Positions 3,643 to 62,803 of a stretch of DNA of 64,000 bases are shown here, piece after piece. Location of the stretch: positions 806,001 to 870,000 of the forward strand of contig OZ037840.1 of the NCBI GenBank assembly GCA_964035575.1, read 5' to 3'. The notes under the pieces were generated by a model. The model did no database searches, was not told where the DNA came from, and was given only the letters and a program-made list of their open reading frames with translations. Source of the DNA: Rhynchopus sp. YZ270_cl-10 (lineage: Eukaryota; Euglenozoa; Diplonemea; Diplonemida; Diplonemidae). The translations under genes and the position numbers were made by a program. Numbering within the stretch: position 1 is the stretch's first letter; every line of letters begins with the position of its first letter.

Positions 3643-6600
3643 ATGGAGTATCAGAGCCATCCGTTGAAGGCATCGGATTTGCAGCAGAACAATGTAGGGT
3701 ATGAGGACAATGATGCCTCCAGCTCTGCGTCTACGAAGATGACGGTGTTCGTTGAAGAGTGGGGGGACGGTGCACGGAACTGGGTGAGGAGTGTTATTTT
3801 ATTAAATCCGTGGTTCGAACGGTTCTGGCTGTTGATTATTATTGCAAACTGCGTGGTCCTCGCGATGGAAGACCCGACAGACAAGGACTGCGAAACAGAG
3901 CGCTGCAAATTCACGAAAATCGCAGACTACGTCTTCACGAACCTCTTCGTCGTGGAGATGGTCTTGAAGCTCATTGGCTATGGAACCTTTCGCCGGCATG
4001 ATTCGTATCTGCGTGACGTGTGGTGTCTCATAGATGGGTTGATAGTGGTGTCCGGTGTCATCGCCTTCCTGCTTGACGTGATCTTCTCAGCGTCGGGCCC
4101 AGCGTTGACGGGGCTGCGTGCATTCCGTCTGCTGCGTCCGCTCAAGGCGATCCAGTCGTTTCCCGCGGTGCGTATTTTGATTCAGTCCATTCTCGCATCG
4201 TTGCCAAAGCTGGGGGATGTGTTTGTGTTGTACTTCTTCTTCGTGCTTGTGATGGGGATCATCTCGCTGCAGCAGTGGAAGGGCTCGCTCAGTGTGCACT
4301 GTGCAACGGAGGAGTCGTACCAGGCAGCGTTGCTGGAGGACAACGACTCCCTGGTCGAGCTTGCGGAAGATGGGCGTGTGTGCACGAACTCAAGCTACTT
4401 CCACGTAGGTGGGCATCTCTGTGACTTCGGATACGTCTGCGTGCGGCACGGCGGGAACCCTGAGGGCGGGCTGCTCTCCTTCGACAACATCGGGGTGGCG
4501 GCACTGACGCTGTTTGTGGCGCTGACGCTTGAAGGGTGGACCGACGCGATGTACGAGACCATGGACGCGACGACGTACTTTGCTGCCTTTTTCTGGGTGA
4601 TCCTTGTCATCTTTGGCGCCTTTTTCATTCTCAACCTTACTATTGTCATTATTACTGAGGCTTTTGAGATGAAGCAATACGAGCAGAAGACTTCTGCGTT
4701 TCGCGCCATTGACAAGGACGGCGGGGGCGAACTGGACAAGGAAGAGGTGCGCCGCCTGCTGAAGAAGCTTAATGGACAGGATCCCTCTGAGGAGGAGCTG
4801 GACAAGGTCTTTACGGAGATGGACACTGACGGGGGTGGCACGGTGTCGTTGGAGGAGTTCCTTGAATACGCAGAGAAGCACGCAGCCACTGTGGGCGCCG
4901 CACTCACCAAAGGGAGACCTGGCGCAACAGGCATGATGACATCCGTCAAGCAAGTAGCATCGAAGCTCCCCCTCCTCGGGAACGTGAAAGGCGCCGTGGA
5001 GCGTGCCACAGAAGACCTAGGGGAAAGGGAGGAGAAGCGTGCACCCTGGCGTGACCGGATTTACCAAGTGGTGGAGCCCACAGGGTTGGAGACAACAATG
5101 CCCGTGGCAAACAGGCTCTTCGACAGAACAGTGATGGTGGTCATCATCCTCAACACCATCGCCCTCGCAATCGAGCACCACGGCCAGCCTGATGAGATGA
5201 CCACTGTGCTTGAGGTCTTCAACTACATCTTCACAATATTCTTTGCCCTCGAAGCCGCTATAAAGATCATAGGTTTGGGCATCATGGGGTATGTTCGTGA
5301 TAAGTTCAATATCTTCGACTTCATCGTGTCCCTGCTCTCGGTGGTGGGTCTCTTTGGCGTTGTCGGGAATGTGTCGGTGTTCCGCACGTTCCGTGCCCTG
5401 CGTGTGCTGCGCCTGGCGAAGCAGGTGCCACTCCTGCAGCGCTGGATCGGGATTCTGCTGAACTCAATGAAAGGTGCTGCGGTGCTGACGTCGCTGCTGA
5501 TGCTTGTGGTCTTTATTGTGGCACTGCTCGGGATGCAGCTGTTTGGGGGGAACTTCTGCCACCTTGACGAGGACTTTGATGCAAACGCCGCAGGGCTGAC
5601 GGATGCAGAACGCGGGACGGGACGTGGCTGTGGTGGTGTACCACGCTCCAACTACGACGACTTGGCGAGCGCGCTGATGACAACATTCCAGATCCTGACT
5701 GGCGAGGACTGGAACAAGATCATGTACAACGGGATGCGTGCTGCGGGGGACTGGGTGTCTGTGTACTACGTGCTGTACTACATGCTGGGGAACTACATGA
5801 TGCTGAACCTCTTCATTGCTGTGCTTCTCAACAGCAGGGAGATGACCGACTCCTCTTCCTCCATCACCGAGGCGCCTGGCGACGACGACCCCCTCGACAT
5901 GCCTGCGAGCCCTGCCACAGCGAGCCCTGCCACCCTCAGCAAGGCCATCTCCGATGACCCTGCCTCACCCAAGGTGGAGTGGCAGAAGCTGTGTGACGAC
6001 ACGAATACGGATCACAACGAGGCAGCCAGCCCCGTCGCTGATGCCGCAGTCGTCCTAGGGCGCAGAAACATGGGATACCAGGACGCCATCGACCGCAAGG
6101 AAGGCCCCAAGCGTCGCCTCCCTGACTGGCTCAACGAGCTTGTCGAGTCCGAGCGCTCCCTCCTAGTCTTCAGCAAGGACAACGTCATCCGCCAGAAGAT
6201 GCTCTGGATCATCAGCACCACAGCCTTCGAAGCAGTCGTGCTGCTCTGCATCCTCGTCTCCACAGTCACCCTTGCCCTCGAGAACCCGGTCCGCCCACCA
6301 GACCACCCACAGGAGCTCCTCCTGGCACAGGTCAACTTCGTCATGGTCTGGGTCTTCCTCACAGAATGCTTCTTTAAGGTAGTCGGGATGGGGTTTGTTT
6401 TGCACAAAACAAGTTATCTGCGTTCAGAAGGGTGGAACATTCTTGACTTTGTGATCGTGTGTGTCAGCCTTCTGTCGTTGGTGATCCCAGGAGGCAACTC
6501 GCTTGAGTTCATCAAGATCATGCGCACGCTGCGTCCCCTGCGCTTCATCAACAAGTCTGAGGGGATGAAGGTCGTTGTCCAGGCGTTGGTGAAGAGTATT

Positions 6601-9498
6601 ACGCCGTTGCTGAACGTGATGTTGATCTCGCTGCTGGTGTGGGTGATCTTTGGCATCATGGGTGTGCAGCTTTTTGCGGGGAAGTTCCACCGCTGTTCGC
6701 TCAACGAGTATGGCGACATGGATGCGATCACCTTCCGCGTGGACTGCCTCGACATCGACAAATGTTCCGGCGACGACGGCGAGCCCTGCAGGTGGCTGAA
6801 CTACGTCTCACACTTCGACCACCTGCCTGCAGCGTTCCTGAACCTCTTTGAGGTGGCGTCGCTTGAAGGGTGGGTCGACGTGATGAACCTTGGGATTGAC
6901 TCCGTTTCGTACGACGAGGCGCCGAGACGGAACAACAACCGGTGGATGGCGCTGTACTTTTTGATTTTTGTTGTGTTTGGCGCCTTTTTCATTATCAACA
7001 TGTTTATTGGCGTGCTTATTGACACATACTACCAGGAAAAGGAAAAGGCTTCCAGCACGGGTGGAATATTTCTGAATGATCGGCAGAAGCTGTGGGTCAC
7101 ACATCATACTAAGATGCTCAACATTATGTCAGCCACGAATCGCGAGGCGGTGACGAGACGCCAGCCACGTGACAGCTTTCTTTTCAAACTGATGACCTCT
7201 TCTGCCTGCGACGTATTCATCACGGGGTGCATCATCCTCAACGTCCTGCTCATGGCCACAGAGCACTATCCTGGGGGAGTCTGGCTGGACGTTCTGCACA
7301 TCATTAACTTAATCTTCTACGGTATATTCTTGCTGGAAGCAATTCTGAAGAATCTTGCATTAGGACCAACAGAGTACTTCAAGGATATGTGGAATAGGTT
7401 CGATATGTTCATCGTGTGCCTGTCCACGGTGGGCGTAATAATGGAGTTAGTGTTGACAGCAAGCCCCGCAGTAAGTATTTTCCGGATTCTGCGTCTGGCC
7501 CGCCTGCTGCGCATGGTGAAGAAGGCAAAGGGCATCAAACGCATCCTGCGCACGCTGCTGCTCTCCCTCCCCTCAATGATGAACGTGGCGGGGATCCTCT
7601 TCCTCATGTTCTTCGTCTACGCGGTGCTCGGTGTGAAGCTCTTCGCAAAGCTGCGGCGTGGCGGGCCCGACGATGCGATGGGGCGGTACGCAAACTTCGA
7701 GAACTTTGGGTTCTCCCTTTTGCTTCTCCTCCGCATGACGACAGGCGAGGCGTGGCAGTCCGTTCTCAAGGAGGCCTCTGTGGAGCCGCCGCACGCATGC
7801 TCCGAGCACCTCGGGAACTGCGGGCATCCCTTCATCGCGGTGGTCTACTTCTGCTCCTTCACGCTTGCGGGGATGTACGTTCTTCTCAACCTTTTCATTG
7901 CTGTTATCTTGGACGCCTTTTCACAGTCCAACGAGGAAGGCGTTTGCACAGACGAATACATGGAGCGCATCAAATACTGCTGGGACGATGTCAGGGAAGA
8001 CGACGCCGACGGCGTCGACCCTAGGAACCTTTACAGCTTTTTAACCGCTATCGGACCACCCTTGGGGATGGAAGTGGACTCTTTAGAATCTGATCTGGAA
8101 GCCTTCATTGCACCTATGGACCTCGAAGTGTGCCCAGAGACGGGCCTCATCTTGCAGGTAGAGTTGATCCCAAAGCTCTTCAAGATGCGCTATGGCCAGT
8201 CCCTCCCTGACGACCTGCAGGAGCACCTCACCGCCAAAGAACGTGAGCACATCACCCTAGGCCGCCAGGTGACCGGAGTGTCGCTGAAGCAGCAGCACTC
8301 TAATGTGGAGTTGAGTGTCCTCCCTTCGTACGACGCTGCCTTGTTGGGGGGGCCGAACACAGACGGTGAGCAGAAGACACATAGACCCAGGAGGTTGACA
8401 GTCACGCTGCCTGACGAAGAAGAAAGCACCTTCCCCGGCACGCCGTTGGGGGTAAAGGAAAGCAGCGCAAATGGGGGGACGACCTACACGGCCCCCTCGC
8501 TGCTGCTCTCTTCCGCTTCCACTGCGTTGCTGGAGGCTCCTGTGCAGACCGCTCCACGACGTGACCCTCATCGCACACCACACCCATGGGTCTCTCAAGG
8601 GGTCTGGCCAGATGGCGGCATAGACAGGAGGAATGTTACCTTACATAAGCCCCCTCTGTTAGGCGCGTCATTAGGGTTCAAGGTAAACCCAGATACTGCT
8701 AGGGTGACTACGGTTGAAGAAGGGTCTGTCGCTGATGCGTCGGGGATCACTCCGGGAATGCGGTTGACCGGGGTCGATGGGGAGGTGGTGACGGCAGGGA
8801 ATATTGAGGCTGCGACGAAGGATATACGGTATGCAAAAAGCGCGGTGAATCTGGAGTTGGAGACGCCGGACCCTACTGATATGTTGATGGAGCGGTATGC
8901 GGGTCCAAACAAATGCCTGAACTTTTTGCAGCTAAGCGGAATGTGCACCGCCCTCGGTGTCAGCGGACCGAACAATTTAAAAACCTTCGAAGCAGTGTGC
9001 GCAGCAAAGGGTCTCAACCCGAGACAAGGTTTTGGATGGTCCGACACACACGAAATGATGTCCGCGCTCCCATACGAAGGCAGACGGCGTGTACTCCTCT
9101 CCCTAGGGCTGCTCCCTGAAGAGAGGGGGTTGGGCATGGCCAGCTCTGCGTCTCCACACCACAGCCAGGTGGTGCAGGAACACTGGGAGGAGGTGTATGA
9201 GTTGAAGTCGCTGTCCCCTGTGCAGCCGCTCCTGCGGCAGCAGCAGCAGCAGCATCCGTTGACGCACCCACTGCTGGCGCCTGCGGGGTCAGGTGCGGAA
9301 GGTCTGCCACACCATCGTCTCAGCCACAATGCATTAACAGCGAACAACAGACTGCTCGGCAAGTTTGAGCATGCTTTTATGGAGGTGCGGGATGGAGCAG
9401 GAGGAGGAGTGCACCACCACCATCACCACAACCACAACCCACACGGTGGATTTGCGGGTCCTGGCGATTATCTGTCTCGCTCATATGTCCCGTTGTGA
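3643..9498 (+). CDS. Four-domain voltage-gated calcium-type channel alpha subunit with linker EF-hands and PDZ-like domain (1951 aa)
   Basis: Pore-forming subunit of the Cav/Nav superfamily, predicted in a cellular membrane. Four six-helix domains: I (S1 near residue 60), II (near 496), III (near 861), IV (near 1188). Each has an Arg-rich S4 (about 155-172, 577-596, 956-972, 1278-1297), so voltage gating is expected. Pore loops are TLEGW (~294), TGEDW (~686), SLEGW (~1073) and TGEAW (~1368): an E/E/E/E ring, the pattern of Ca2+-selective channels. Two canonical EF-hand loops (DKDGGGELDKEE ~357 and DTDGGGTVSLEE ~393) sit between domains I and II, in addition to the degenerate EF-like region after domain IV (~1440-1520) common in Cav. 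A PDZ-like fold (~1672-1740, GASLGF) and a disordered tail with Q and H runs follow. TAA immediately precedes the ATG in frame. Intronless. The family call is firm; the selectivity is inferred from the filter. Confidence 0.95.
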   Translation: MEYQSHPLKASDLQQNNVGYEDNDASSSASTKMTVFVEEWGDGARNWVRSVILLNPWFERFWLLIIIANCVVLAMEDPTDKDCETERCKFTKIADYVFTNLFVVEMVLKLIGYGTFRRHDSYLRDVWCLIDGLIVVSGVIAFLLDVIFSASGPALTGLRAFRLLRPLKAIQSFPAVRILIQSILASLPKLGDVFVLYFFFVLVMGIISLQQWKGSLSVHCATEESYQAALLEDNDSLVELAEDGRVCTNSSYFHVGGHLCDFGYVCVRHGGNPEGGLLSFDNIGVAALTLFVALTLEGWTDAMYETMDATTYFAAFFWVILVIFGAFFILNLTIVIITEAFEMKQYEQKTSAFRAIDKDGGGELDKEEVRRLLKKLNGQDPSEEELDKVFTEMDTDGGGTVSLEEFLEYAEKHAATVGAALTKGRPGATGMMTSVKQVASKLPLLGNVKGAVERATEDLGEREEKRAPWRDRIYQVVEPTGLETTMPVANRLFDRTVMVVIILNTIALAIEHHGQPDEMTTVLEVFNYIFTIFFALEAAIKIIGLGIMGYVRDKFNIFDFIVSLLSVVGLFGVVGNVSVFRTFRALRVLRLAKQVPLLQRWIGILLNSMKGAAVLTSLLMLVVFIVALLGMQLFGGNFCHLDEDFDANAAGLTDAERGTGRGCGGVPRSNYDDLASALMTTFQILTGEDWNKIMYNGMRAAGDWVSVYYVLYYMLGNYMMLNLFIAVLLNSREMTDSSSSITEAPGDDDPLDMPASPATASPATLSKAISDDPASPKVEWQKLCDDTNTDHNEAASPVADAAVVLGRRNMGYQDAIDRKEGPKRRLPDWLNELVESERSLLVFSKDNVIRQKMLWIISTTAFEAVVLLCILVSTVTLALENPVRPPDHPQELLLAQVNFVMVWVFLTECFFKVVGMGFVLHKTSYLRSEGWNILDFVIVCVSLLSLVIPGGNSLEFIKIMRTLRPLRFINKSEGMKVVVQALVKSITPLLNVMLISLLVWVIFGIMGVQLFAGKFHRCSLNEYGDMDAITFRVDCLDIDKCSGDDGEPCRWLNYVSHFDHLPAAFLNLFEVASLEGWVDVMNLGIDSVSYDEAPRRNNNRWMALYFLIFVVFGAFFIINMFIGVLIDTYYQEKEKASSTGGIFLNDRQKLWVTHHTKMLNIMSATNREAVTRRQPRDSFLFKLMTSSACDVFITGCIILNVLLMATEHYPGGVWLDVLHIINLIFYGIFLLEAILKNLALGPTEYFKDMWNRFDMFIVCLSTVGVIMELVLTASPAVSIFRILRLARLLRMVKKAKGIKRILRTLLLSLPSMMNVAGILFLMFFVYAVLGVKLFAKLRRGGPDDAMGRYANFENFGFSLLLLLRMTTGEAWQSVLKEASVEPPHACSEHLGNCGHPFIAVVYFCSFTLAGMYVLLNLFIAVILDAFSQSNEEGVCTDEYMERIKYCWDDVREDDADGVDPRNLYSFLTAIGPPLGMEVDSLESDLEAFIAPMDLEVCPETGLILQVELIPKLFKMRYGQSLPDDLQEHLTAKEREHITLGRQVTGVSLKQQHSNVELSVLPSYDAALLGGPNTDGEQKTHRPRRLTVTLPDEEESTFPGTPLGVKESSANGGTTYTAPSLLLSSASTALLEAPVQTAPRRDPHRTPHPWVSQGVWPDGGIDRRNVTLHKPPLLGASLGFKVNPDTARVTTVEEGSVADASGITPGMRLTGVDGEVVTAGNIEAATKDIRYAKSAVNLELETPDPTDMLMERYAGPNKCLNFLQLSGMCTALGVSGPNNLKTFEAVCAAKGLNPRQGFGWSDTHEMMSALPYEGRRRVLLSLGLLPEERGLGMASSASPHHSQVVQEHWEEVYELKSLSPVQPLLRQQQQQHPLTHPLLAPAGSGAEGLPHHRLSHNALTANNRLLGKFEHAFMEVRDGAGGGVHHHHHHNHNPHGGFAGPGDYLSRSYVPL

Positions 9499-28237: not shown

Positions 28238-29192
28238 GCACGAAAGGCTCAGGTTATTTCTCATAATGTTTGGTCCATTTCAGATGTAAACCACGAAAAA
28301 TGGATGTAGGACTGCATGGTTGGGTGACCACCCCCCGGTACAGCCGGTCATGTACCCAAGGTGCACTGTTCACGAGAGGGGGTTGTATTTCAAGGTCAAT
28401 TTTTGTTTTGTCCATTTCAAAAAACCTCAAAAACACCAGGGCTTTCTTTGGACTATATCCTGGGACAGAGCCTATTTAACACAACCCCCAGCCAATTCCG
28501 CCTGAGAACAGGAGTCTACTGGAAGTTGTCCTACACGACGTGGTCCAGGACCAATTTCACTTGTCATGGTGACAACTGAAATGACAAGTGACATTGATGA
28601 GGCACCTCGTGCACTGTGTGTGTCTGGGTGACAGACCCACACCTTGCCACGTCGTGCGACACCACAAGCTTCGCCTCCGTCGCCACCGTGTTTAAATAAG
28701 GCCAAAAAAAGGGAGGGGGGGTTTTTTTTTATAGCATAGCCTTTGTTTTGTTCAATCTACGTTATGTCCGTTTCTTCTCTCTACCCCCCTCTATCATCTC
28801 ACTGTGCTGCGATTGCCCAAAAAAAAACAAAAAACAAAAAAAAACCCCTAGTCGGCTTGCTTCACAATGAGTTATCCCATGACAAATTATCCCTGTTTCG
28901 GTGACTGACGAAGAGAGTTGGATAGGTACTAGGGTGACTCAACGTAGACTGCGACAAATGGAAGTAAGCTGGCGGGAGGGGGAGGTGGGTGTACTGTTGC
29001 AACACGTGATATTTTATTTTATTTTTCGAATTTTTTTTTTTCAAAAAAAAAAAAATAGAAAATACAATGGGGCATCCTTAGACCCCTTGGGTGACATTCT
29101 GTGGCCAACCTATAGCGGGGCCATAGTCGATGCAACAAAAAAACCCCACAAAAAAAATCCAAACAAAAAAATATTGTTGTAACGAAGTCGGA
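28238..29192. repeat. Dispersed repeat copy and spacer
   Basis: 28230-28420 carries the composite dispersed repeat (gcacgaaaggctcagg, cagatgtaaaccacgaaa, ggtgcactgttcacgagagg). The remainder is AT-rich spacer with A runs; no gene recognised. Confidence 0.6.
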
Positions 29193-29245
29193 AAAAGAAT
29201 TTACCCCCTCTTCCCCCCTTGATTAATTCTTGATACACCTCCACA
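29193..29245. repeat. ~53-bp direct repeat, upstream copy
   Basis: Contains aagaatttaccccctcttcc and ttgattaattcttgatacac. Apart from one C more or less in a C run, it is identical to 34934-34987. The two copies flank the NLR-like gene, and each lies in the 5' region of a gene (about 200 bp before ATG 29449, about 60 bp before ATG 35046), so it may be a shared promoter element. Confidence 0.75.
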
Positions 29246-29350: not shown

Positions 29351-29448
29351 GTCAGTAACTAGGATTCTCCTTCTTCTCACAACGCACAACAGGAACAGCA
29401 AACCAACATCTGTGAACAAGTACATACCACACATTTTCTTTCAGGAAG

Positions 29449-32400
29449 ATGGGATCCGGAGCGTCGAAGCCTGAAAAGGACGAGATTGCAAAGGGAATTA
29501 CTGGGAAGGAGAGGCCCGTGGACGCAGTCGACAGCGTGGACGGGAGGACAATGCTGCACAGTGCTGTGCTTGCGGGAGACGTGGAGGCAGTGCGGTTTCT
29601 TGTGGAGAACGGGGCAGGGAACGTGCGTGACAGGGACGGGAACGTGCCGCTATGGTATGCACTGCAGCACAGGGACGCGGATGTGCGGGGGCGACTTGAG
29701 GCGGAGCTGGGGGCGCATGCAGCAGAAATCCTTGTGGAGGTGGAGGATGCTGTGCAGGTGTACCTCACTCACGGTGTCGCCACAACAACGACAACGACAG
29801 CAACACCAAGAACAACAACAACAGGTGTGGCGGTGGAACGGAGCAGTGGTGATGCAACGACAGCACCTCTTACTGACCCTCACATGGACATGGCGAAAGA
29901 CACGAAGACCTCGACTGAAGACAGGCACCTAGGAGAGGACGATCTTGACGGGGACACGGGTGCACTGCGGCACACAGACGGACGGAAGGTGGAGTGGCTG
30001 CGGAAAACAGAGGACAACAACAACAAGAACGGCAATGGAGGTGAAGACCTGCTGTGCTGGCTGCGTGGTCTGCCAAAGGTGGATCCGCCGTTGGGCTACA
30101 CAGACGAACACGTGCGGCACATGGAGGCGGGGTTCCGTGTGGTGTGCAAGCGTCTGCTGGAGGACATCAGAGGACGGAGGGAGGCTGCGGGGACACGTGG
30201 GCACGTGGAGGTGGAGGACTGGATGGCGGCACGCGACCCGTTTGAGCTGCTGCTGTCGGGGTTCCTGTTCACGTCTGACTGCGTGGAGTATGTGCTGGAC
30301 AGCGGCGGGGATGTTGTGTGCGACGAGGATGACGGGACACCACAGATTGCGAAAGGGCCTGACGGGAAGCTGCGGTACATCAAACTGACGGAGCGGGCTG
30401 TGCTGGACAACCACGGGAGTGCTGCTAATTCACAGTCGCTTGCGCTGTACATGACGATGAACACTGCGATGCGTGCTGTGGGGTGGCTGCCTGCGGTGAA
30501 GGAGTGGAAGGGGACACCTGAGAAGACAGCACCGAACGTGTTTGAGCTGTCGCCTGCACCCCCGCAGCTGCACGTGATTGCGACCTTTGCGCCGCTGATC
30601 CGTGGTCTGGACCGGCTGATTGGGAGCCGTCGGAAGCAGCTGCGGACTGTGTTCCGTGGGATCAATGTAAACGTGTCTGCGAAGTACGCGCTGGGGACGC
30701 ACGTTGTGGAACTGCTTCACGTCGACAACACTGAAGCGGGATGTGGCTCGGAGCTTCATGTACGGGAAGGGAGGCACGTTCTTTGTGGTGGTGGCGAAGG
30801 AGGGTGCTGCAGATGTGAAGTTCTCGTCTGTGTATGCTTCGGAGGACGAGCTGCTGTACACAGCGAACATCGAGTACCGGGTGCAGTGGAAGCTTTCGCC
30901 GACGTTACTGCGGATGATGGGGCTGCGCTTTGACGTGATTGTGATGCAGGAGGTGTGTGCGGATGCGGGTGTGGGTGTGGGGGAGACGAGTGCGGCTGAG
31001 CAGGTGGGTGCGCTGCAGGAGGTGATGGGACACACAGTCGCATTCTTCAAGGACTACCTTGCGCAGTACGTGGAGGGGCGTGTGGGTGACGACACGCGTG
31101 TGGATGAGTCGGAGACAAGTCCGCTGATGGAGGAGGTGCGGAGGTGGCTTCGTGCACGTGGAGGTGGGAAGCAGATGTCTGCAGTGTGCACACAGGCAGC
31201 AGCGCGCACAGAGCGCAAGCCTGATGTGGAGGCAAAAGAAGAAAGACAAGGGACGTGTGGTGTGCTGTGTGTGATCGGAGAAGGAGGGAGCGGGAAGACG
31301 TCTGCTTCGATTGCAATTCTGAGCGACCTTGCAACGTCTGCGAAGAAGAGTGAAGGCACCAGCAACGAAGACACAAACAGGAACAGGAACAGCGTGGTGA
31401 GTGATGTGACTGCGGATGCGGATGCGAAACCATACTTCCCTGTGTTTGTGGCGCTGCCGACTGTGAAGCGGCACCTGCTTGAGAAGGGAGGGCTGGACAG
31501 GTTTGTGCTGGAGTCGTTTGCGCTGCGGGAGGCGGACCGTGCGTACCTTGCGGAGACGTACGAAGTGGTTCTGGTGCTGGACTCGCTAGACGAGGTGGGT
31601 CTGACGCAGAAGAATGTGGGTGCTGTGGTGTCTGAGGGTGGCCTTCTGTGCCGGCACCCGTGGGTGGAGGCACACTGCAGCGTTATTGTGACTGTGCGTG
31701 GTGAGTACCTGAAGGGTGTGGACACGTCTCCGTCTGGTGTGTGTGGGGCTGGTGTGCGTGCTCTGTACATGCAGCCGTTCACAGAGGTGGATGCGAGAAC
31801 GTACATCAAGCGTGCAAACACAGCCTGGGAGAAGGAACACAAAGTGGAGCAGCCAGCCCACAAGGAAGAGTCTTCGTGCGTGAGGAGGACGTTGAGGGAC
31901 TTGTGCAGCTGCGGAACCCGTTTGTACTGCACATGGCGTGCCACGCGCAGTGCAGCGGGAAGGCTTCTGAGGAGGTGATCTACGAGACCTACCTGGAGAC
32001 GTGGACGAAGAAAGAGATGTCGTCTGGTGGTGCTGCTGTTGCTATTTCCGATGTGTCTTTGGAGGATGTGGTGCGTGCAGGGGAGCTTGTTGCATGCAGG
32101 ATGTTGGAGACAAACGAATGGCAGGGGACTGTGGGTGTGGCGTCGGAGGTTCTTGTGTCGCGGCACGGTGTGTGTGAGGCTGTGCGGGATGCGTGCTTCC
32201 GCTGCCTGCCGTTCCGGATTGAAGACTTGGGGGAGGAGCGGAGTGCGTTCACGTTCCGGCACAAGTCGCTTGGGGAGCACCTTGCAGCACGGCGGCTTGC
32301 ACGTGATCCAGCAGGGACACTGAGAACGCTGGTGCAGCGGAGCTTCAGCAAAGACTCGCAGCGTGTGCTTGGGTTCTTTGCGGCGCTGGTGTGTGGAGAC

Positions 32401-34644
32401 AGTGGGCTGTACGAACGTGCCTGCACAGTGTTGCTTGCGGCTGTGAAGGCAACACGCGGCAGTGGTGGAGGTGCAGGTGTTTGTGGGGAGGATGCTGTGA
32501 CAGCAGGGTCGAATGCAGCAGCACTGCTGGCACGTGCACGCATCCCTGTGAGTGGGGAGGACCTGAGCGGGATCCGTGTGTCGAACTGCGACCTGCGCGG
32601 GTCTCTGTTTGTGGAGACGGCGCTGACGGGCGCTTCCTTCTCGAACTGCTGGCTGGAGCACACTGAGTTCCACACCTGCGACATGGGTGGCACGATGCTG
32701 CCTGACTGCTCCCTTGGCACGCCACTTCCTGTACTGCAGAGTCATGCCTTTGGTGTGGCAGTGACACCTGATGGCAGTCAAATGGTAACCGGTGGCTATG
32801 ACGGCAGTGTACATGTGTGGAGCATGTCTTCTGGGGAAGAAGTCATGGTCTTGGAAGGACATTCGAACCACATAAAAAGAGTGACATTAACACCTGACGG
32901 CACCCACGTTATTTCGTGCTCTGTTGACAAAACTGTGCGTGTGTGGGGTATGCACACTGGGGAGGCAGTGTTCGTCTTGGAAGGCCACAAAGGTATTGTG
33001 GAAGAAGTGTCAGTCACTCCCGACAGTTCTAAAGTTGTTTCAATTTCTGCAAAAGATGGCATCCGTGTGTGGGATCTCTCGACGGGGATGGAAGTGCTGG
33101 CAATAAAGTCGCTCGGCATTCGCAGCATGGTTATTACCAAGGATGGAAGTCAAATAGTGACATGGTCCAAGGAGATGCTGTGCGTATGGGGTCTGGTCAC
33201 GGGGAAGCAGGAGATGCAGTGGCCTTGTTGTGTGGAGTCTTCGCATGCACTAGCAGTCACTCCCGATGGATGCCATGTCGTTTCGTGCACTGATGGCGCA
33301 CATCTTTGGAACCTCTCCACTGGGGCAGAGGTGATGGTGTTCCATGCCGACGCTGAGTTGACAGCAGTGGCAGTCACCCCCGATGGATGTCACGTGGTTG
33401 CTGGGTCCGGGAGCGGCACTGTGCACGTTTGGAGCATTTCGACTGGGAAGGAGGTGACGGTGTTGCAAGGGCACACCTCTCGTGTGAATGTAGTGACAGT
33501 GTCACCAGATGGATGCCACGTGGTTTCATGCTCCTGCGAAGACGGTACTGTTCGAGTGTGGAACATCGCGACCGGGAAGGAGACACCAGGTTTCGAAGGA
33601 TTCCCAGGCTGGTCTGTGGTAGTGGCCCCTGATGGATCTATCATTTCGTACGGTGGCAAAAGACACTCCATCTGGAACACATCCACCGGCAGGCAGACAC
33701 AGGTAGTCGAAGCAGGAATAATGCATAGCGACGATGTTGCTGCCGTGTCCCCAGCTGGCTCTCATGTAGTTTATTGCTCTTGCGGCGACGCTGGCGAAAG
33801 GAGAGCGTGTGTGTGGGACGTTGCGACGGGGAAAGTGCGGCCTTTGTGCACAGCTTCCAGTGAGTTTGCGGTGTTCTTGAAAAAGGTTGGAATACTTGAG
33901 TTCTTCGCAGTGTCTCCCGATGCATCTCACGTGGTGACCTTTTCAAAGGCTCCACAGGAGGAAGACACTTACTGTACGTATGTGTGGAGCATGCCGACTG
34001 GGAAGAAGGTGTCAGTGTATGAAGGAACTACTTGCCCTCCCAGCGGAGTGGTAGTGACTCCTGATGGAGTGCATGTGGTTTCGTACTTTGAGGATTACAC
34101 CGTACACATGTGGAAACTTCACACTGGAGAAGAGACGATGGTGTTCACAGGACATACTGAAGATGTCTCAGACGTGGACGTGACTCGCGATGGGTCTCGT
34201 CTTGTTTCATGCTCTTACGACGAAACTGTGCGTGTGTGGGATGTTGCCAGCGGGAAGGAAATCTTCACCTTGGAGTATGATCGTTCAGTATTACGAGTGG
34301 CACTGACACCTGATGGAGCTCACATGGTGTCGTTCTGTGACGGTTCTATGAGTGTGTGGAACATGACCACTGGTGAGAAGGTGGTAGTGATTACACCACA
34401 TTGTGGTTTGTACAACGTTGCTGTGAGCCCTGATGGACGCGAAGTGATCTGTGGTTGTGATGACCACACTGTGCGTGTGTGGAGCATCTGCACTGGGGAA
34501 GACGGCACGATTGATGGGTTGCGGCTGAAGAGAGTGATCGGTGTCCCTCCAACAGTTCCTCGTGCAGTTGGCTGTCGCAATGCTGATGCTGTGGAACCTG
34601 AACTTGCGAGACGGATTCTTTGTCCTGTCGAGGAGGAGGAGTGA
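29449..34644 (+). CDS. NLR-like STAND protein: ankyrin, ADP-ribosyltransferase, NACHT, 14 WD40 repeats (~1731 aa)
   Basis: Begins MGSGASK, an N-myristoylation signal, so membrane attachment is likely. Order: ankyrin-type repeats (~30-88), Thr-rich linker (~110-125), ADP-ribosyltransferase domain (~205-490), NACHT NTPase (~600-800), pentapeptide-like stretch (~1040-1085), and 14 WD40 repeats (~1103-1686), i.e. two seven-blade propellers. ART centre is of the R-S-E type: Arg in FRG (~402), FTSTT, and EDE in YASEDELL, so arginine-type mono-ADP-ribosylation is possible. NACHT has Walker A GEGGSGKTS (~611) and Walker B VLVLDSLDEV (~707). The frame shifts near 30.69 kb (a G run) and back near 31.87 kb, while domain sequence continues; the shifts compensate. 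Single-base assembly errors are the simplest cause; decay is possible. Inferred model: WD40 senses, NACHT switches, ART acts. Confidence 0.85.
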
Positions 34645-34647
34645 GCG

Positions 34648-35045
34648 CACTGTTCGTACTTGCTCTTTGTGTTTGCTTCTCTTTTCCAAGACGAATGCAG
34701 TCTGAGTGACGAGTACGAACTGTGTTGAACACTGCCTGTGCGGTGGTGCCCTGCGTTGTGCGACGACAGAAGAGCGGCTTGTCGAAGTGTCCCACTGCCA
34801 GTGCACTAAGTGTGCTGTCTGTTCATATTCACACGTCTTTTCCAAGATGTGTTGCGATTACACATGTGTTTTGACCACTTGGTTTTTTGGAGTGTCACAT
34901 ACTGCCACTTCCACATTTGTACACTTTTCATTTAAAAAGAATTTACCCCCTCTTCCCCCCCTTGATTAATTCTTGATACACCTCCACACCTTTTCCACAT
35001 ACACCCTTCCTTCAAACACAAGGTGCGACGTTTTCACTCCACACA
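34648..35045. other. Spacer with direct repeat, promoter of the PH-like gene
   Basis: About 400 bp without a gene. The downstream copy of the ~53-bp direct repeat lies at 34934-34987, about 60 bp before the ATG at 35046. Confidence 0.6.
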
Positions 35046-55620: not shown

Positions 55621-56642
55621 GGTTCATCTGAAGACCTTTTCTTTATTGTTTTTTTCTTCTTTTTTTTTTGTTCCCACCCCCCCCGCTTCCTCTTCTCTAA
55701 AACAAAATAATGGTGAACGCGCATCTCACAGGGTTTCCACGCTACTTCGATGACAGAAGATGCGTGACTGCAAATTGGGGGATTTTTTTTTTATTTCATC
55801 ATTCTGTTCGTTTAGAAAAGAATGAAGAAATTATGAAAAAAATCATTTCAGTATTTTGTTCGCAAGATGACTAAGCGCGAGAGGCTTAGGGTCATATGCG
55901 AGTCAGCATGCGAGAATCATTTTCGCTCACGTAGAAGATTTTGGTCGTGCGAGAACGAGCGAGAATTGTGCGAGAGAATTTTTCGCCAGACCAAAATAGT
56001 GCGAGAATGCGAGAAATGCGGCTCGCATCGAGTGTATGCTTAGAGTCATCTTAAAAAAACTTTTCTTTGTGTTGCCTCACTCGAACACAGCTCAAACAGC
56101 GGAGAAACACAAACAAAAATTTGCAGAGCGATAAAACGAAACGCGTCGTTTTTTTTTTCCTCCCTTTGTTTTCTATGGTATTCAGTTATATCCTGAAGTC
56201 AGATTCTATTGTCCCCCATAAAGCAAAGCATCAACAACAATACGAGATTATTTTTCAATCACCTCTACACCTCTCCCCTCCCCCTTAACCCTTTACGGAC
56301 CGGAGCCATTTAAAGTGCCGCGGCTAATCCCGCAAAAAATTGTGGGGTGTACCAAAGGCAACACACATCCACACCCAGTGTCACATCATTTCACCACATT
56401 TCACCACATCACAACACCTTGCCCAAATCCTCCAAACCCTCCCAAAATGCCGCTTAAACCTCAAAACAGAAAAAAAATCAACCCCCAAGACACACACTTC
56501 CCCCTATATAATATGCCTAACTCTTCGCCATAACCTTCGTTTTCTTTCTTTCTCTTTCTCCTCTCCCCTTTCTAAAATACCTCATTCCTGTTCTCTCTGT
56601 TTGCGTTCTCCCTCTCTCCCCCTCCTTTGTATTTCTCCTAAA
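55621..56642. other. Spacer with GCGAGA-rich insertion and a piggyBac-like end
   Basis: No gene. 55893-56035 is a gcgaga/tctcgc-rich insertion inside the dispersed repeat (gcttagggtcat before, gcttagagtcatctta after). At 56285 TTAA is followed by CCCTTTACGGACCGGAGCC, matching the left end of the piggyBac-like elements; no right end is seen before the next gene, so it is truncated or a solo end. Pyrimidine-rich leader precedes ATG 56643. Confidence 0.55.
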
Positions 56643-59600
56643 ATGCGGTGGTTTTTTGCCTTGCTATGTGTATACATGGTAGAAGCGTTAGTGGACTCAC
56701 AGCAGGTTATGAGAAGTGCTGAAGTGACGCAAGCTGATCAATGCATCTGGAAGGAACTGGATCTGCTCCCAGAATGCGCGGTCATCCGCAACCTTCAACC
56801 ATTAGGGGACACAACGATCACCCCGACGGATGTACAGCAGATCTGCAGTTTTTGCCTCAAGGCGGTTACCCATTTTCTTTCAACCAACGATCTTTCTGTT
56901 TGCTCCCAATTTCTTACGTGGACTTCCACTATTACTAAGGCATGCACGAAATCGGATCTCATTGATATTCCTTGCCCAGATCTTACCTCCGCTGGGTGTG
57001 CGCAACTTCATGACCTAGGGTTGTTAACGTGGAAGGATAGCAAGCCTGATGTTCCTATTCCGGTTGGAACGATAAAGGTGTATTGTGATCAATGTGTTGC
57101 GGTCATGGGAATGGATTTGACACCGTGCCCTGCGGAGAAGGCGTTTGATAAGGCGCTACGTGCTGCGTGCACTTTGGTGCAAGCGTCGTACTGCTTTAGG
57201 AAGGAATATCCAAAGGCGTTTCCCTCCTCTCCTTGCGGCGCAACGATAGCAGCATACGGAATGTACGGTGCAGTGATGCCGAGCAACGTAGTCACCACAA
57301 CCTGCGGGGAGTGTCTTCCGTTTGTTCAGGACAACTATGATGCCTGGAATCCACAGTGTGCGACAACGTCGAAGCGTTCGGTCGTTACCGTCGCAAAGTC
57401 GCAATGTATCACCGGAGATGCAAAATGTACCGCAGATTTTCTGCTTCGCATACCCGGCTGTGAGGCGCTGGCATCTATTTTGCTTGGTCTGAACGCTTTT
57501 ATGACGCAGCCTGACTGCACAGCGTGTCTTTCTGTCGCGATTCGACAGGTTTCGAATAGCGATCGGGCGTCGTGCGCTACTATTGAGGCGACCCTCGCGC
57601 AGCTGCAGGTGGAATGTCTCGCAGGGGGCTTTCTTGACATAAAGTGCTCTGTGCTGTACGCCTGGCTGGACAGCAACCATTCCTACGTCCCGCCCCCGAG
57701 AAACAGCTCCTCCACGCTGTCGGTGACCCTCACCCTCCCCTCCGTCACCATAACCGAGACCATCTCCTCCGTCCCAGGGGTGCTCACCGCCGCCCCTGCA
57801 GTTTATCAACCCCCAGGGCCCTGCAAGGACCCACTCTCATGCAGTTGTGCCTTTGCGATGAAGGACAGCTTTTATCAAAAATGGCGTTTCTATTTACAAA
57901 AATGCGGCACTACACCTGTTGCCACACGAATCAAATGCACCTGCGGAATGATCAAAACAAAACTCTATGATACGGTCCCTACTTGCAATGGAGTGTTGGA
58001 TCGGCCAAATCTATTTTCCTTATGCTCTGACTGCCATCCGGAGCTTGGGTTGATCGCCCCCATCCTGCAAGACTATGACACCTGCACTAAGAGCAGCGTA
58101 GGCGCGGCGACCCTTCGCGGAATTAACGCTACCTGCCAAGAAGGAGGCATAGGTCATGCCATCTGCCCAGATGCCATTCTCGCCGCAGCGGCAACCCAGC
58201 ATTGCGAAGGCACCTTTGACCGTCTTATCGAATCCTCCCTCCGTTCCACTGTCGTCACGCAAACCATCTTCCGCGACTGGGTCTGCGCGAACAGTACCCG
58301 CTGCCCTGACAACATCCTCCAAAACCCTTCTTTGACAGACTCTCTCAAAACCTGTGGGATTGATGTCGGGAAAGAACGCGCTGTGTGCCTCTGCTGGCCG
58401 CTCCGTAAGAAGATTCTTGCGACAACCAACTGTGAAGTGCTTCTGAACGACCAATGGAAAATGTCGGAGTTAAACTATTCTAAACTCTGCCTAAAATGCC
58501 TGAAAGACATTCAAATCTATGGGAGTCTGGTGTCTGAATATGGTACCTGCATGGGGTGGGGGCACTACTATGCTTCTGACCTTGCAGGGAATGTCAACAC
58601 CATTTGCGCGCAACGCTACCTCGGTGTAGGTGGGTATGTGTCACATAGTCCGGCAGTTTCTGCTTGCCATGCTCGCCAGGATGGTGCCTCCAGCTGTACC
58701 CCTGCTCGGCTTTGTGATATAGAACGTTACGTCCCCCCCTGCTCGCTTGCCTATCAAGATAGGGGGTGGCGAGCGCAAGGATCAGGAAACCTTGCAACAG
58801 TGTGCACATCATGTGTCATCCCTTTGCTTGAGGCGTTTGCGCAAAATGCGTTGGGGGTGCAGACCCCTCTTGGCGGAGCGGTGGTGAGACTGCAGGAGTG
58901 CAACGCAGCTTGGGGTGCTGTGGAGCTGCAGGCAACGTGCCAGCACTCTGCGGATGTGTGCACAGCGTACCCTGATGGGTGCACCAGCTTGCAGGTCGCG
59001 GAGGGCACCTCTGGGTGTGATGTGCAGGTGTTGGAGGAGAGGGGGCAACGTTGGTCCCGCTGCCTTGCCTCGACCCCAGGGGACCAATGTAGCTGTACCC
59101 GCGACTTCCTTGCAGGGATGAGTGAGGGCTGCACAAACCATTCGATTCTCGTGGCCTGGCTCTGCACGGTGAGGCAGCAGGGCTGCAGTGGTGTGCCGTA
59201 TCCGCCAGGGGTGGGTGCTGCGGAGTGTGCGTTGTTGATCCCAACGTTGGGGTATGTTGCTGGTTTGGGAATTATTTTTGCTACAAGAGAAAACCGAATG
59301 GAGTAGGAACGCAAACGAGCTTTTATTCATAATGTTTTATTCTCCCCCAAAATCTCATGAAGAAATACCATTTGATCTGCACCCCCCTTTCCCACCTCCC
59401 ACAGATACAACACCCACGGACTGCACACCCAGTACGCGCTCTGCTCCCGCCCCACCGTCGACAAGCTCTACTCTGATGCCGCTGTGTGCCTCGACTTCGC
59501 CAACTCGGTATGCCCCGTTTCTCCTTTTTGGATATCCACAAGCATAGGCAGTTCTGTTCCCCCAGAAAGGCCATTGGTAGCCAAGCCTAAAAGGTTGTTT

Positions 59601-62600
59601 AATAGCCTATTCTTCACCATCCTCCACAGAACGACACCTGCGCCTGCATTAATGCGACCATCCAGGCACTTCCTGTTGCGTGCCATTGGGGCGAGACGCG
59701 TCAGGACATCACACGGGTGTCGTGTCTGGCTCAGGGCCGCTGCCCTGCTGCTGTCGCGGTATCTGAGTGCGAGGTGCTGCTGACAGAGTACGACACTGAG
59801 GTGGCGACACGCCCGCTGCAGGAGCGGATATTTAGGGCGAGTTTGTGTAGCGCTGGGATGGCGAAGGTGGCGGCGTACATGGTGGCAACGCTGTGGGACG
59901 CATGCACCAACATCGACAAATGTGTGTGCATGGACGCAGTGCACCGTGCAATGAAGACCCTCCGCTACTGCGCGTACGGCGCACCCGAGTGGGAAACCCT
60001 TCGCTGCATTGCCCACCTGCACTGTGCGCCACGCTTTCCGAACCGCTACACACCACCCGACATGCCAAGCAAATGTCAGCTCCTCACACACAACCCCACC
60101 ATCGCGCATGAGCAGAACGACTACATAGCCTCAGGCGCGCCGTTGCTCCGTGCGCCGGTCTGTGAATGGACCAATATCAACGCAACGTACACCAGGTTTC
60201 TTTCCTGTTTGCAGGAAACTGCGGTGACGCGAGAGGGGAGGTGCCATTGTGTGGTGCTGTTTTCGTTTCAGATTCCGCTTCCGTGCAGGATGCAGCCGAG
60301 TCTTGCGTGGAATCATGCTCGGTGTTTGGCGTCTGACCTAGGGTGCACAGCGTTGCCGATGTTGCAGACGCAGTCGTGCGATACGATGTACGCACTGCTC
60401 CAAGTGCAACCAGACTTCCCCCTCGTCTCCCGCTCCGAATCAGAAATCAACACCGTCGAGCAACAGATCCGAGAGGTACCAGATCGGTGTCTGCTTTCCT
60501 CGCAGCCTTCTCATGCCATCACAGCGTGCTATACCCAGGGCGCTTCGGCCCCGGACCCGACGTTGGTGAAGATAAATATTTTAATGTGCTCTTGCATCAT
60601 GACGACGTACTTCGACATGGTGCCCTGCGCGCCTTGGCAGCCCTTTGCGCTGGAGGAGCTGCGCTGCATCGCTAAGGAATGGGACTGCTACGGCGTGCCC
60701 CTCCCGCTGACGAAGTGCGCCTCCGTCGCGGGCACGCTTCTGACAAACCCTTCCGTCGCTCCGTGCATGGCGGTCGACAAAATCCTTCGCAAACACACCA
60801 TTCTCGACACCTGTGTGGCATTGGACCACTTCCGTGCGTTCATCCCATACATCTGCCGCTACTCCAGCATCACCTCGGAGGACTACCAAGCTAGCTTATG
60901 CCGTTCCGCTCAGTTGGGATGCGCATTGACAGAGATTCCAATGCTAAAATGCACCCGATTTTTGAACGACAAAGGGCACACCATTGCGTTCGAAGCTGCG
61001 AGACGATCACGACAGCTTCTGGCATCGGTGGCGAAGGAGTGTGCTCCTGTGTTTCTCATGGCGTCGCACGAACGCACCGTCGCATCCTCCTGCAACGGCC
61101 GCTGTGGCGACATGCTCAGCGAGCTGCAAAACGCGCTTCTCTCCGGCGCCTCTTCAGACAACAAATGGTACGTGAAATACCTCGTCGCGGCATGTGTCCG
61201 AAACAACAACCTGCTCCCCGTCTTCGTCGCTCTGCGCACCTCGCACCACCAGATACAACACATCGATGTGGACACCCCAATCGCCTTGGGCAACGTCCCT
61301 CACTTCATTGGCCGTCGCGTTCGCGGTGCGCTTCTTGGCAGCTGGCCTGGACCGAAGGGGGAAGTGCAGATGCCGACATCCCCCTCCGCCAATGCCATGA
61401 GGTCTGTCTGCAGCGCGCAGTACGTCCGCGCCTTAGGCATACTAGCAGGTTATGTTCTTGTGGATGCACAGCTCGAACTCTGCTCTCAAATGATCTCCTC
61501 TACAACGCAACGGAAAATGTGCGCCTTCGAGAAACACCTCTGGCATGACACCATACCTGCGGGGGTCGACGCGCAATGCAGTTCACGGTGTTACAACAAG
61601 GTGGTGCAAAGTGTAGGAAAGCGCGCCGGACCTGCTCTCGAGAGCGCTAGCAAAGCTGCGCTTGCGTTAACCTGCAAACGCGACCCTCTCACAAGCACGC
61701 TCTGTATGGGTGCGATCTCTGCTAACCTTGCTGGGGTGGGAGGAACGGTGGGCACAACGTTCTATGACGGGACGTACCCTATAAAGCTCTGTCGCCATGC
61801 GCTCGCCGCGTTTGAACAGTGTAGGAGAGGAGGGGACGTTCACCTCTGTGACTGCGTCCGAGCATTAAGCCGCGCCGAGCCGAACAGCGCATGCCTCGTC
61901 CACGAAAACGTCGCTCCAACCACACTATGCCTTCTAAACAACCTCTTCCCTTGTGTTCACACCGAATTTAAGTTGGCATATTCGAAATATTGCACACCAT
62001 CCATGGCATTAGACATGACCTGTCGTGAGCATATATGGAACCCTCAAATGCGGTGTACAGAAAGCTGTATACAACGTTTTCATAAATACTCTGAAACCTG
62101 GGGGTGTTGTGCCGGGGTATATAATGCATATTTGCAGACGAAAGGGCGGGGGTCGCTTGACAATGTCGCCAACGCCTGCAAAATCCAATTCGGAGGGACC
62201 TGTCCGGACACAGAATACCCAGATGGATTTACCGGGAGGATTGTGATTGACGCCGATATCACGGTTTTCCGCGCCTACGAGGCAGAGTTGATTGCTGCTG
62301 CGAGATATGATGTTGTGACCACTCTAGGGCTTGTCGACTCCAACATCGTTGCAACCGCAGTCGGTACTGTCGATATTCAATTCGCCCTCAAAGAAAATGA
62401 GCAAACCTTATCTCGAGATGCCATCACCCTTCAGGCAGCAGGTGGCGTTTTTCTATCCAACGAAACCACCCAAGAAGTTTCCATCGTCTTCCTCGTAAGA
62501 GGGGAACGGCGTGGCGAAGCGGACACTCTAAGAAGGGATTTTCAGTCCTTCGTCACAACAGGGTTTCCAATGGGTCGTCTTGAGGAGGTGTACCTCAAAA

Positions 62601-62803
62601 GGGCGGCTCGGAATTTCTTGGTCAGCACTCATCTCAGTCTCGTCTCGACGACGGTACGACCGTTCAACTACTTTCAAAAGAACATCACAATTGGCCTCGA
62701 TGACACCGATACTGTTGCATATGAGCTTACCCCGTTTGATGCATGTGGCATGTTATCACCAGGGATGGCAGTCACCTTGACGCTCTTCGTTTTGTTAATC
62801 TGA
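56643..62803 (+). CDS. Giant Cys-rich secreted, probably GPI-anchored protein, three exons (~1961 aa)
   Basis: Exons 56643-59251, 59405-59507, 59630-62803. Introns of 153 nt (GTATGT...cccacAG, phase 2) and 122 nt (GTATGC...ctccacAG, phase 0) join TLG-YNTHGLHTQYALC and LDFANS-NDTCACINAT; the peptide stays Cys-rich across both junctions, which is the main support. Signal peptide MRWFFALLCVYMVEALV at 1-17. The ectodomain repeats a pattern of CxxC followed ~15-30 residues later by further Cys (ICSFC, YCDQC, TCGEC, DCTAC, LCSDC, LCLKC, VCTSC), with a Pro/Thr/Ser stretch near 370. The C-terminus (SPGMAVTLTLFVLLI) is a short hydrophobic tail ending the protein, as in GPI signals. Likely a cell-surface or wall protein. 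No known family recognised. Without splicing two separate ORFs would be called. Confidence 0.83.

Follow-up and report, generated by a model that had tools for sequence, protein, structure and literature searches.

To our knowledge little is known of non-self recognition in free-living protists, and among the closest described counterparts of the family considered here is the HET-D/HET-E/HNWD gene family of the fungus Podospora anserina, which has the same order of an N-terminal effector, a NACHT domain and C-terminal WD40 repeats. A portion of the account in PMC1805685 reports positive selection in these WD repeats at codons 7, 9, 25 and 27, arranged as pairs around the constrained codons 8 and 26, and passages of PMC7159879 and PMC8195603 describe ADP-ribosyltransferase (ART) domains as toxins or effectors in conflict and apoptosis systems, so that an ART acting in such systems is already a known idea. 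Here we describe a family in the diplonemid Rhynchopus sp. YZ270_cl-10 that combines these elements, starting from a plus-strand locus at positions 29449-34644 of a 64,000-nucleotide stretch (positions 806,001 to 870,000 of contig OZ037840.1, assembly GCA_964035575.1), hereafter the window. We consider it likely that the family consists of NLR-like non-self-recognition receptors with a built-in ART effector, and that the window locus is a broken or misassembled member of it.

The initial annotation had read the locus as one frame encoding ankyrin, ART, NACHT, pentapeptide-like and 14 WD40 units, and this domain set is borne out by Pfam, by the sequence and by paralogues. In order, the locus encodes an MGSGAS start, which we take to be an N-myristoylation-type motif, ankyrin repeats (29539-29682, residues 31-78; Pfam Ank_4/Ank_2, Ank_4 at 35.9 bits), a helical region, the ART, the NACHT NTPase, a pentapeptide-like stretch (32545-32730, recognized by homology to the paralogue L015, whose Pfam Pentapeptide match scores 23.1 bits against a cut-off of 20.2) and 14 WD40 blades (32731-34495, from Pfam and repeat analysis) that would form two seven-blade propellers. 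The single frame did not survive: coding is open in frame 1 at 29449-30933, in frame 2 at 30704-31978 and again in frame 1 at 31741-34644, and homology passes from one frame to the next at about 30.70-30.71 kb and 31.83-31.87 kb. When the whole frame-1 open reading frame is used for searching, almost every other full-length match ends at its residue 420-422 (about 30.71 kb). Homology is then carried by frame 2, between 30704 and about 31.83-31.86 kb, and from 31.87 kb by frame 1 again; these frame-2 and later frame-1 limits were mapped with window pieces that we had trimmed to overlap (at 415, at 385 and from residue 41). The resulting coding pieces lie on either side of the two breaks, and the window "protein" is therefore a reading across them. 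The first piece (29449-30708) runs from MGSGAS through the ankyrin repeats, a linker and the helical pre-ART region to the beginning of the ART with its FRG arginine (30655-30657); the second (30704-31859, by sequence and homology) holds the remaining ART and the NACHT core; and the third (31870-34644, by sequence, Pfam and homology) holds the C-terminal helices of the NACHT module, the pentapeptide-like stretch, the WD40 blades and the stop. As the first break falls inside the ART, the arginine motif lies upstream of it and both STT (30722-30730, the S of R-S-E) and EDE (30842-30850, the ExE motif) lie downstream; all the key ART motifs are indeed encoded, as had been claimed, but the arginine is split from the other two. 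On the window pieces the Pfam matches ADPrib_exo_Tox (17.2 versus 23.4) and nSTAND1 (17.6 versus 27.1) stay below cut-off.

A search of the 152-Mb genome with the first 494 residues recovered at least 87 family loci (96 matches), a lower bound with 87 of 306 candidates scored. At 79 of the 87 the reading frame stays open for 1,500 aa or more; the match at one of these, on C42, contains a TGA. Of the loci 44 lie on contig C21 (1.70 Mb), all on the minus strand up to 0.45 Mb and all on the plus strand from 0.69 Mb on, and contigs C3 and C5 have 12 and 11; some of the loci are arranged in tandem with a spacing of 6.3-6.6 kb. Five paralogues on other contigs (L015-L019) are single frames of 1,528-1,817 aa (1,528-1,800 aa in the distant members L016-L019), with effector, NTPase and repeats in one polypeptide, and the R, FTSTT, ExE and both Walker motifs are intact in all 29 other loci that were read. 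When intact, a family member has a single exon and encodes about 1,750 aa. Because these paralogues, namely the 29 other loci as well as L015-L019, span the same stretch in one frame, an intron as the cause of the frame changes and a set of separate adjacent genes can both be dropped, the latter for the family as a whole. The objection that the domains might belong to separate genes is further contradicted by three relatives in the EukProt transcriptome assemblies (P0020, P0023 and P0024), one of them labelled Hpha, presumably Hemistasia phaeocysticola. A programmed frameshift is also unlikely, since the paralogues have no need of one. At the window locus a pyrimidine tract followed by AG precedes the ATG (29429-29444) and is a likely spliced-leader acceptor; by visual count, 24 of 30 loci carry TTCAG immediately upstream of the ATG, in keeping with the trans-splicing of a spliced leader that PMC10161547 describes for Euglenozoa.

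The ART assignment, for which the initial annotation had proposed a profile and a structural check, passed both in the nearest paralogue tested. The stretch of L015 equivalent to the window ART scores 26.1 bits with Pfam ART (cut-off 22.3), and its AlphaFold model matches solved ART structures. The R, S-T-S/T and ExE motifs fall within this fold, and those downstream of the first break in the window, STT and EDE, are each kept in 29 of 29 other loci; a further motif count over 67 proteins was made on sequences selected by RTVFRGI and so is no test of the arginine. The family thus has an ART domain by profile and model, and an ADP-ribosyltransferase activity is predicted for it.

The NACHT domain scores above the Pfam cut-off in L016-L019, and in the window its Walker A (GEGGSGKT, 31277-31300) and Walker B (LVLDSLDE, 31571-31594) motifs are both kept in all 29 other loci. 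An AlphaFold model of the ART-NACHT part of L017 (residues 75-905, 831 aa) has a predicted local distance difference test score (pLDDT) of 84.6, and the leading Foldseek matches to it are the animal NLRs NLRC4, NOD2, NLRP3 and NLRP9, with ART structures and Avs4 (rank 43) also among the best 50 of 810. By its NACHT profile with Walker A and B motifs and its predicted NLR-like fold after the NTPase core, the family can be placed in the NACHT class of signal transduction ATPases with numerous domains (STAND).

The WD40 repeats had been described as very similar to each other, which is overstated, given that within the gene they are 60-80% alike at the DNA level; the marked variation lies between paralogues. 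Across 11 close paralogues, mean pairwise identity falls from 0.974 (ART) through 0.947 (NACHT) and 0.938 (pentapeptide part) to 0.684 (WD40). The 14 blades could be aligned in register in 48 of 85 proteins, the other 37 being distant members, the duplicate P0030, or proteins that failed the start pattern or length limit. In this set the most variable blade positions are -9, -7 and +9 from the Asp of the PDG turn (3.00, 2.87 and 2.77 bits, against a mean of 0.87 at other positions). By the rule for top-face protein-contact residues in the part of PMC3419727 that treats them, these are R1-2, R1 and D-1, and this set ranks first by variability among 4,060 position triples in the 48 proteins. The selected Podospora codons 7, 9, 25 and 27 would correspond to -9, -7, +9 and +11 here, around -8 and +10, a mapping drawn from spacing and flanking constrained sites; the four-position set ranks second of 27,405 in the same proteins. 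Although both sets derive from the literature (PMC3419727 and PMC1805685), some of the proteins had already served in a 12-sequence blade analysis (the 11 paralogues and the third window piece), in which the four-position set had been picked after seeing the consensus.

This correspondence is what speaks for allorecognition rather than defence, in which the family would determine whether conspecific cells or strains are compatible and the ART would be the killing domain, as with HET-D/HET-E on hyphal fusion: the hypervariable positions are those of the fungal allorecognition genes, as far as the relevant part of PMC1805685 goes. With at least 87 genes, however, the repertoire greatly exceeds the ten NWD genes that have been named in Podospora and fits many ligands, and we regard allorecognition as possible but rather unlikely.

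The pattern of substitution bears on the same positions. At the R1-2, R1 and D-1 codons nonsynonymous divergence (dN) is 0.93 and synonymous divergence (dS) 0.48, with the proportion of nonsynonymous differences (pN) above that of synonymous ones (pS) in 19 of 21 pairs among seven sequences with DNA; this dS exceeds that found elsewhere in the blade, so that both values may be inflated by the way codons with more than one change are counted. At the remaining blade codons dN is 0.14 and dS 0.23, and pN exceeds pS in none of the 21 pairs. The seven sequences are six full genes and the third window piece, with 12 of the 14 blades found by pattern. Codon positions 1 and 2 differ more (0.54 and 0.55) than the third (0.35) in the hot codons, and outside them it is the third position that varies most. 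Targeted hypermutation by a diversity-generating retroelement, an idea taken from PMC10907252, finds no support, as all six types of base change occur in the hot codons and the changes are not restricted to adenines. Over the entire WD40 part dN/dS is 0.79, compared with 0.20 for the ART and 0.36 for NACHT (15 pairs), and such a value, together with the ease with which repeat arrays recombine, could also be expected of a signalling or scaffold family devoid of any recognition role, whose WD40 part drifts by relaxed constraint and repeat recombination; we hold this to be improbable, given that the variation is concentrated on contact positions with dN above dS and the rest of the blade is constrained. 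Finally, dS in the ankyrin, ART and NACHT parts is only 0.06-0.08, about three times lower than in WD40 (0.24), and this low value in the front half suggests that gene conversion keeps the ankyrin-ART-NACHT effector half uniform.

Architecture, predicted folds, catalytic motifs, family size and selection pattern are established features of the family, and from them we infer an immune role, together with a ligand, nucleotide switch, oligomer, substrate, membrane attachment and outcome, along the following lines. The top faces of the WD40 propellers would bind a variable non-self or modified-self ligand, and binding would release the NACHT NTPase for ATP-dependent oligomerization, by analogy with NLRs. 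Oligomerization would free and concentrate the N-terminal R-S-E ADP-ribosyltransferase, which the myristoylation-type start may hold at a membrane; the ART would then modify a cellular or invader protein, probably on arginine, and thereby stop the infected or fused cell. Several observations weigh against this interpretation. Pfam ART stays just below its cut-off of 22.3 on L016 and L017 (20.5 and 21.2), a PDB sequence search with the ART alignment returned nothing related (best E 0.19, unrelated names), and the NACHT domain of L015 is itself below cut-off (23.9 versus 26.7 bits). The dN/dS values were obtained by a counting method from seven sequences, whose pairs are not independent and among which gene conversion may have occurred. 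Moreover, two intact members with an MGS start, ankyrin, NACHT and WD40 (L018:862-6264 and L019:941-5905, both on the minus strand) have lost the ART R and ExE residues; judging from their sequences, these may be catalytically dead partners or decoys, or may have another output. The earlier proposal of a STAND sensor whose effector is an ART and whose recognition end is formed by WD40 repeats is backed by Pfam, the two AlphaFold models and the selection pattern among paralogues; it is retained for the family, but not for the window copy as a working gene.

With regard to that copy, it forms a unit of about 5.7 kb between the two copies of a 54-bp direct repeat (family D6; 29192-29245 on the left and 34935-34988 on the right) and is the only family copy on its contig (C8) among the 87 loci. 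Within the window the core word of this repeat is confined to these two copies, and of 55 loci just the pair covering this site contain it. The flanking repeat may mark how the copy was inserted, and the window copy is probably a dispersed, decaying duplicate, i.e. a pseudogene. It might instead be a sound gene into which the assembly has introduced two errors, a real possibility that we nonetheless lean against. The second break restores the original frame, none of the three coding pieces contains a stop, and long open frames are kept at 79 of the 87 loci, all of which speaks for such errors. Yet most loci in the same assembly are intact, homopolymer runs at the breaks reach at most four equal bases, and a lone copy between direct repeats is the expected setting for a decaying one. 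Among the protein hits from another assembly of the species, moreover, none is an identical counterpart (the best is about 83% over WD40), an observation tempered by the fact that a broken gene could be missing there.

That second assembly became apparent from P0030, P0071, P0077 and P0049, which are 100% identical to L015, L051, L054 and L055; many of the "ena" matches therefore represent the same species and not independent ones. Using residues 80-890 of P0003, which cover its ART-NACHT part, a protein search gave at least 24 matches, two of them the genome's own genes, with 7,997 candidates sharing most words scored; the closest source-named relative listed is a Diplonema papillatum "putative WD repeat-containing protein" (P0006), with 52% identity over the whole query; PMC8611851 presents this species as genetically tractable. 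The ART part of P0001 gave 72 matches of 248 candidates, and P0027 gave three, the query included. WD40 is not listed for some matches, namely P0007 (NACHT listed), P0016 and P0026 (P-loop found), P0025 (no Pfam match listed) and P0065 (ankyrin and ART). P0027, P0028 and P0029, on short contigs, form a distant clade with the order FRG/ExE-type ART, NACHT, pentapeptide and WD40. Frames of about 2,900-3,100 aa were seen in members on contig C85 (1155413 and 1166138) and in the proteins P0022 and P0080; in P0022 WD40 comes first, followed by ankyrin-ART-NACHT, as if neighboring genes had fused head to tail.

Elsewhere in the window, an open frame of 1,951 aa at 3643-9498 combines four ion-transport stretches with EF hands and a PDZ-like match, i.e. 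a single-exon four-domain cation channel, and 56340-62803 holds two frames of about 1,000 aa with no Pfam match at E up to 0.001. An Rfam search of the window gave zero matches.

In the literature found, through broad searches covering few subscription journals, no ART-NACHT-WD40 family is named; the D. papillatum genome paper mentions neither NACHT, WD40, WD repeat nor ankyrin, nor innate immunity or ADP-ribosylation, and a survey of fungal NLR effectors (PMC9815663) does not mention ADP-ribosylation. The one paper found to mention both diplonemids and an ADP-ribosyltransferase concerns a dinoflagellate. PADLOC gave no match for the ART or NACHT parts and only weak WD40 and ankyrin matches. 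Among known systems, the bacterial NACHT/Avs defence NTPases share the STAND switch, as reflected in the placement of Avs4 by fold. R-S-E mono-ARTs such as HopU1, ExoS and the eukaryotic ART2.2 share the predicted ART fold and the R-S-ExE motifs, but in the diplonemid family a host-type gene joins the ART to NACHT and WD40. TEP1 likewise has NACHT and WD40 in one protein, with TROVE in place of ART; this genome also has a separate TEP1-like gene (L012:900-7907, plus strand), whose single frame of 2,336 aa encodes TROVE (257 bits) together with NACHT and WD40. The animal NLRs NLRC4, NOD2 and NLRP3 share the NACHT module and the helical domains that follow it, and lead the fold matches to the predicted structure, but act through leucine-rich repeats and a death-fold adaptor in place of WD40 and a catalytic ART. 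The likeness to HET-D/HET-E/HNWD extends beyond domain order to diversification at equivalent top-face codons; in contrast, the fungal effector is a HET domain (with Pfam, at E values up to 0.5, none was found in the pre-NACHT parts of five paralogues) and that of the diplonemid family an ART, and here there are at least 87 loci and within-gene repeats only 60-80% alike at the DNA level. What appears to be new is a class of receptors combining ART, NACHT and WD40, together with the size of this class and the presence in Euglenozoa of a positional code for recognition. On balance we slightly favor the view that diplonemids possess a germline-encoded receptor repertoire, numbering 87 genes or more in this species, and that its members are NLRs of a new class, namely NACHT-WD40 receptors with an R-S-E ART built in as the effector. 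In this view the effector half is held uniform by gene conversion as the propellers diversify, and a fungal-type WD40 top-face code was reached, perhaps independently.

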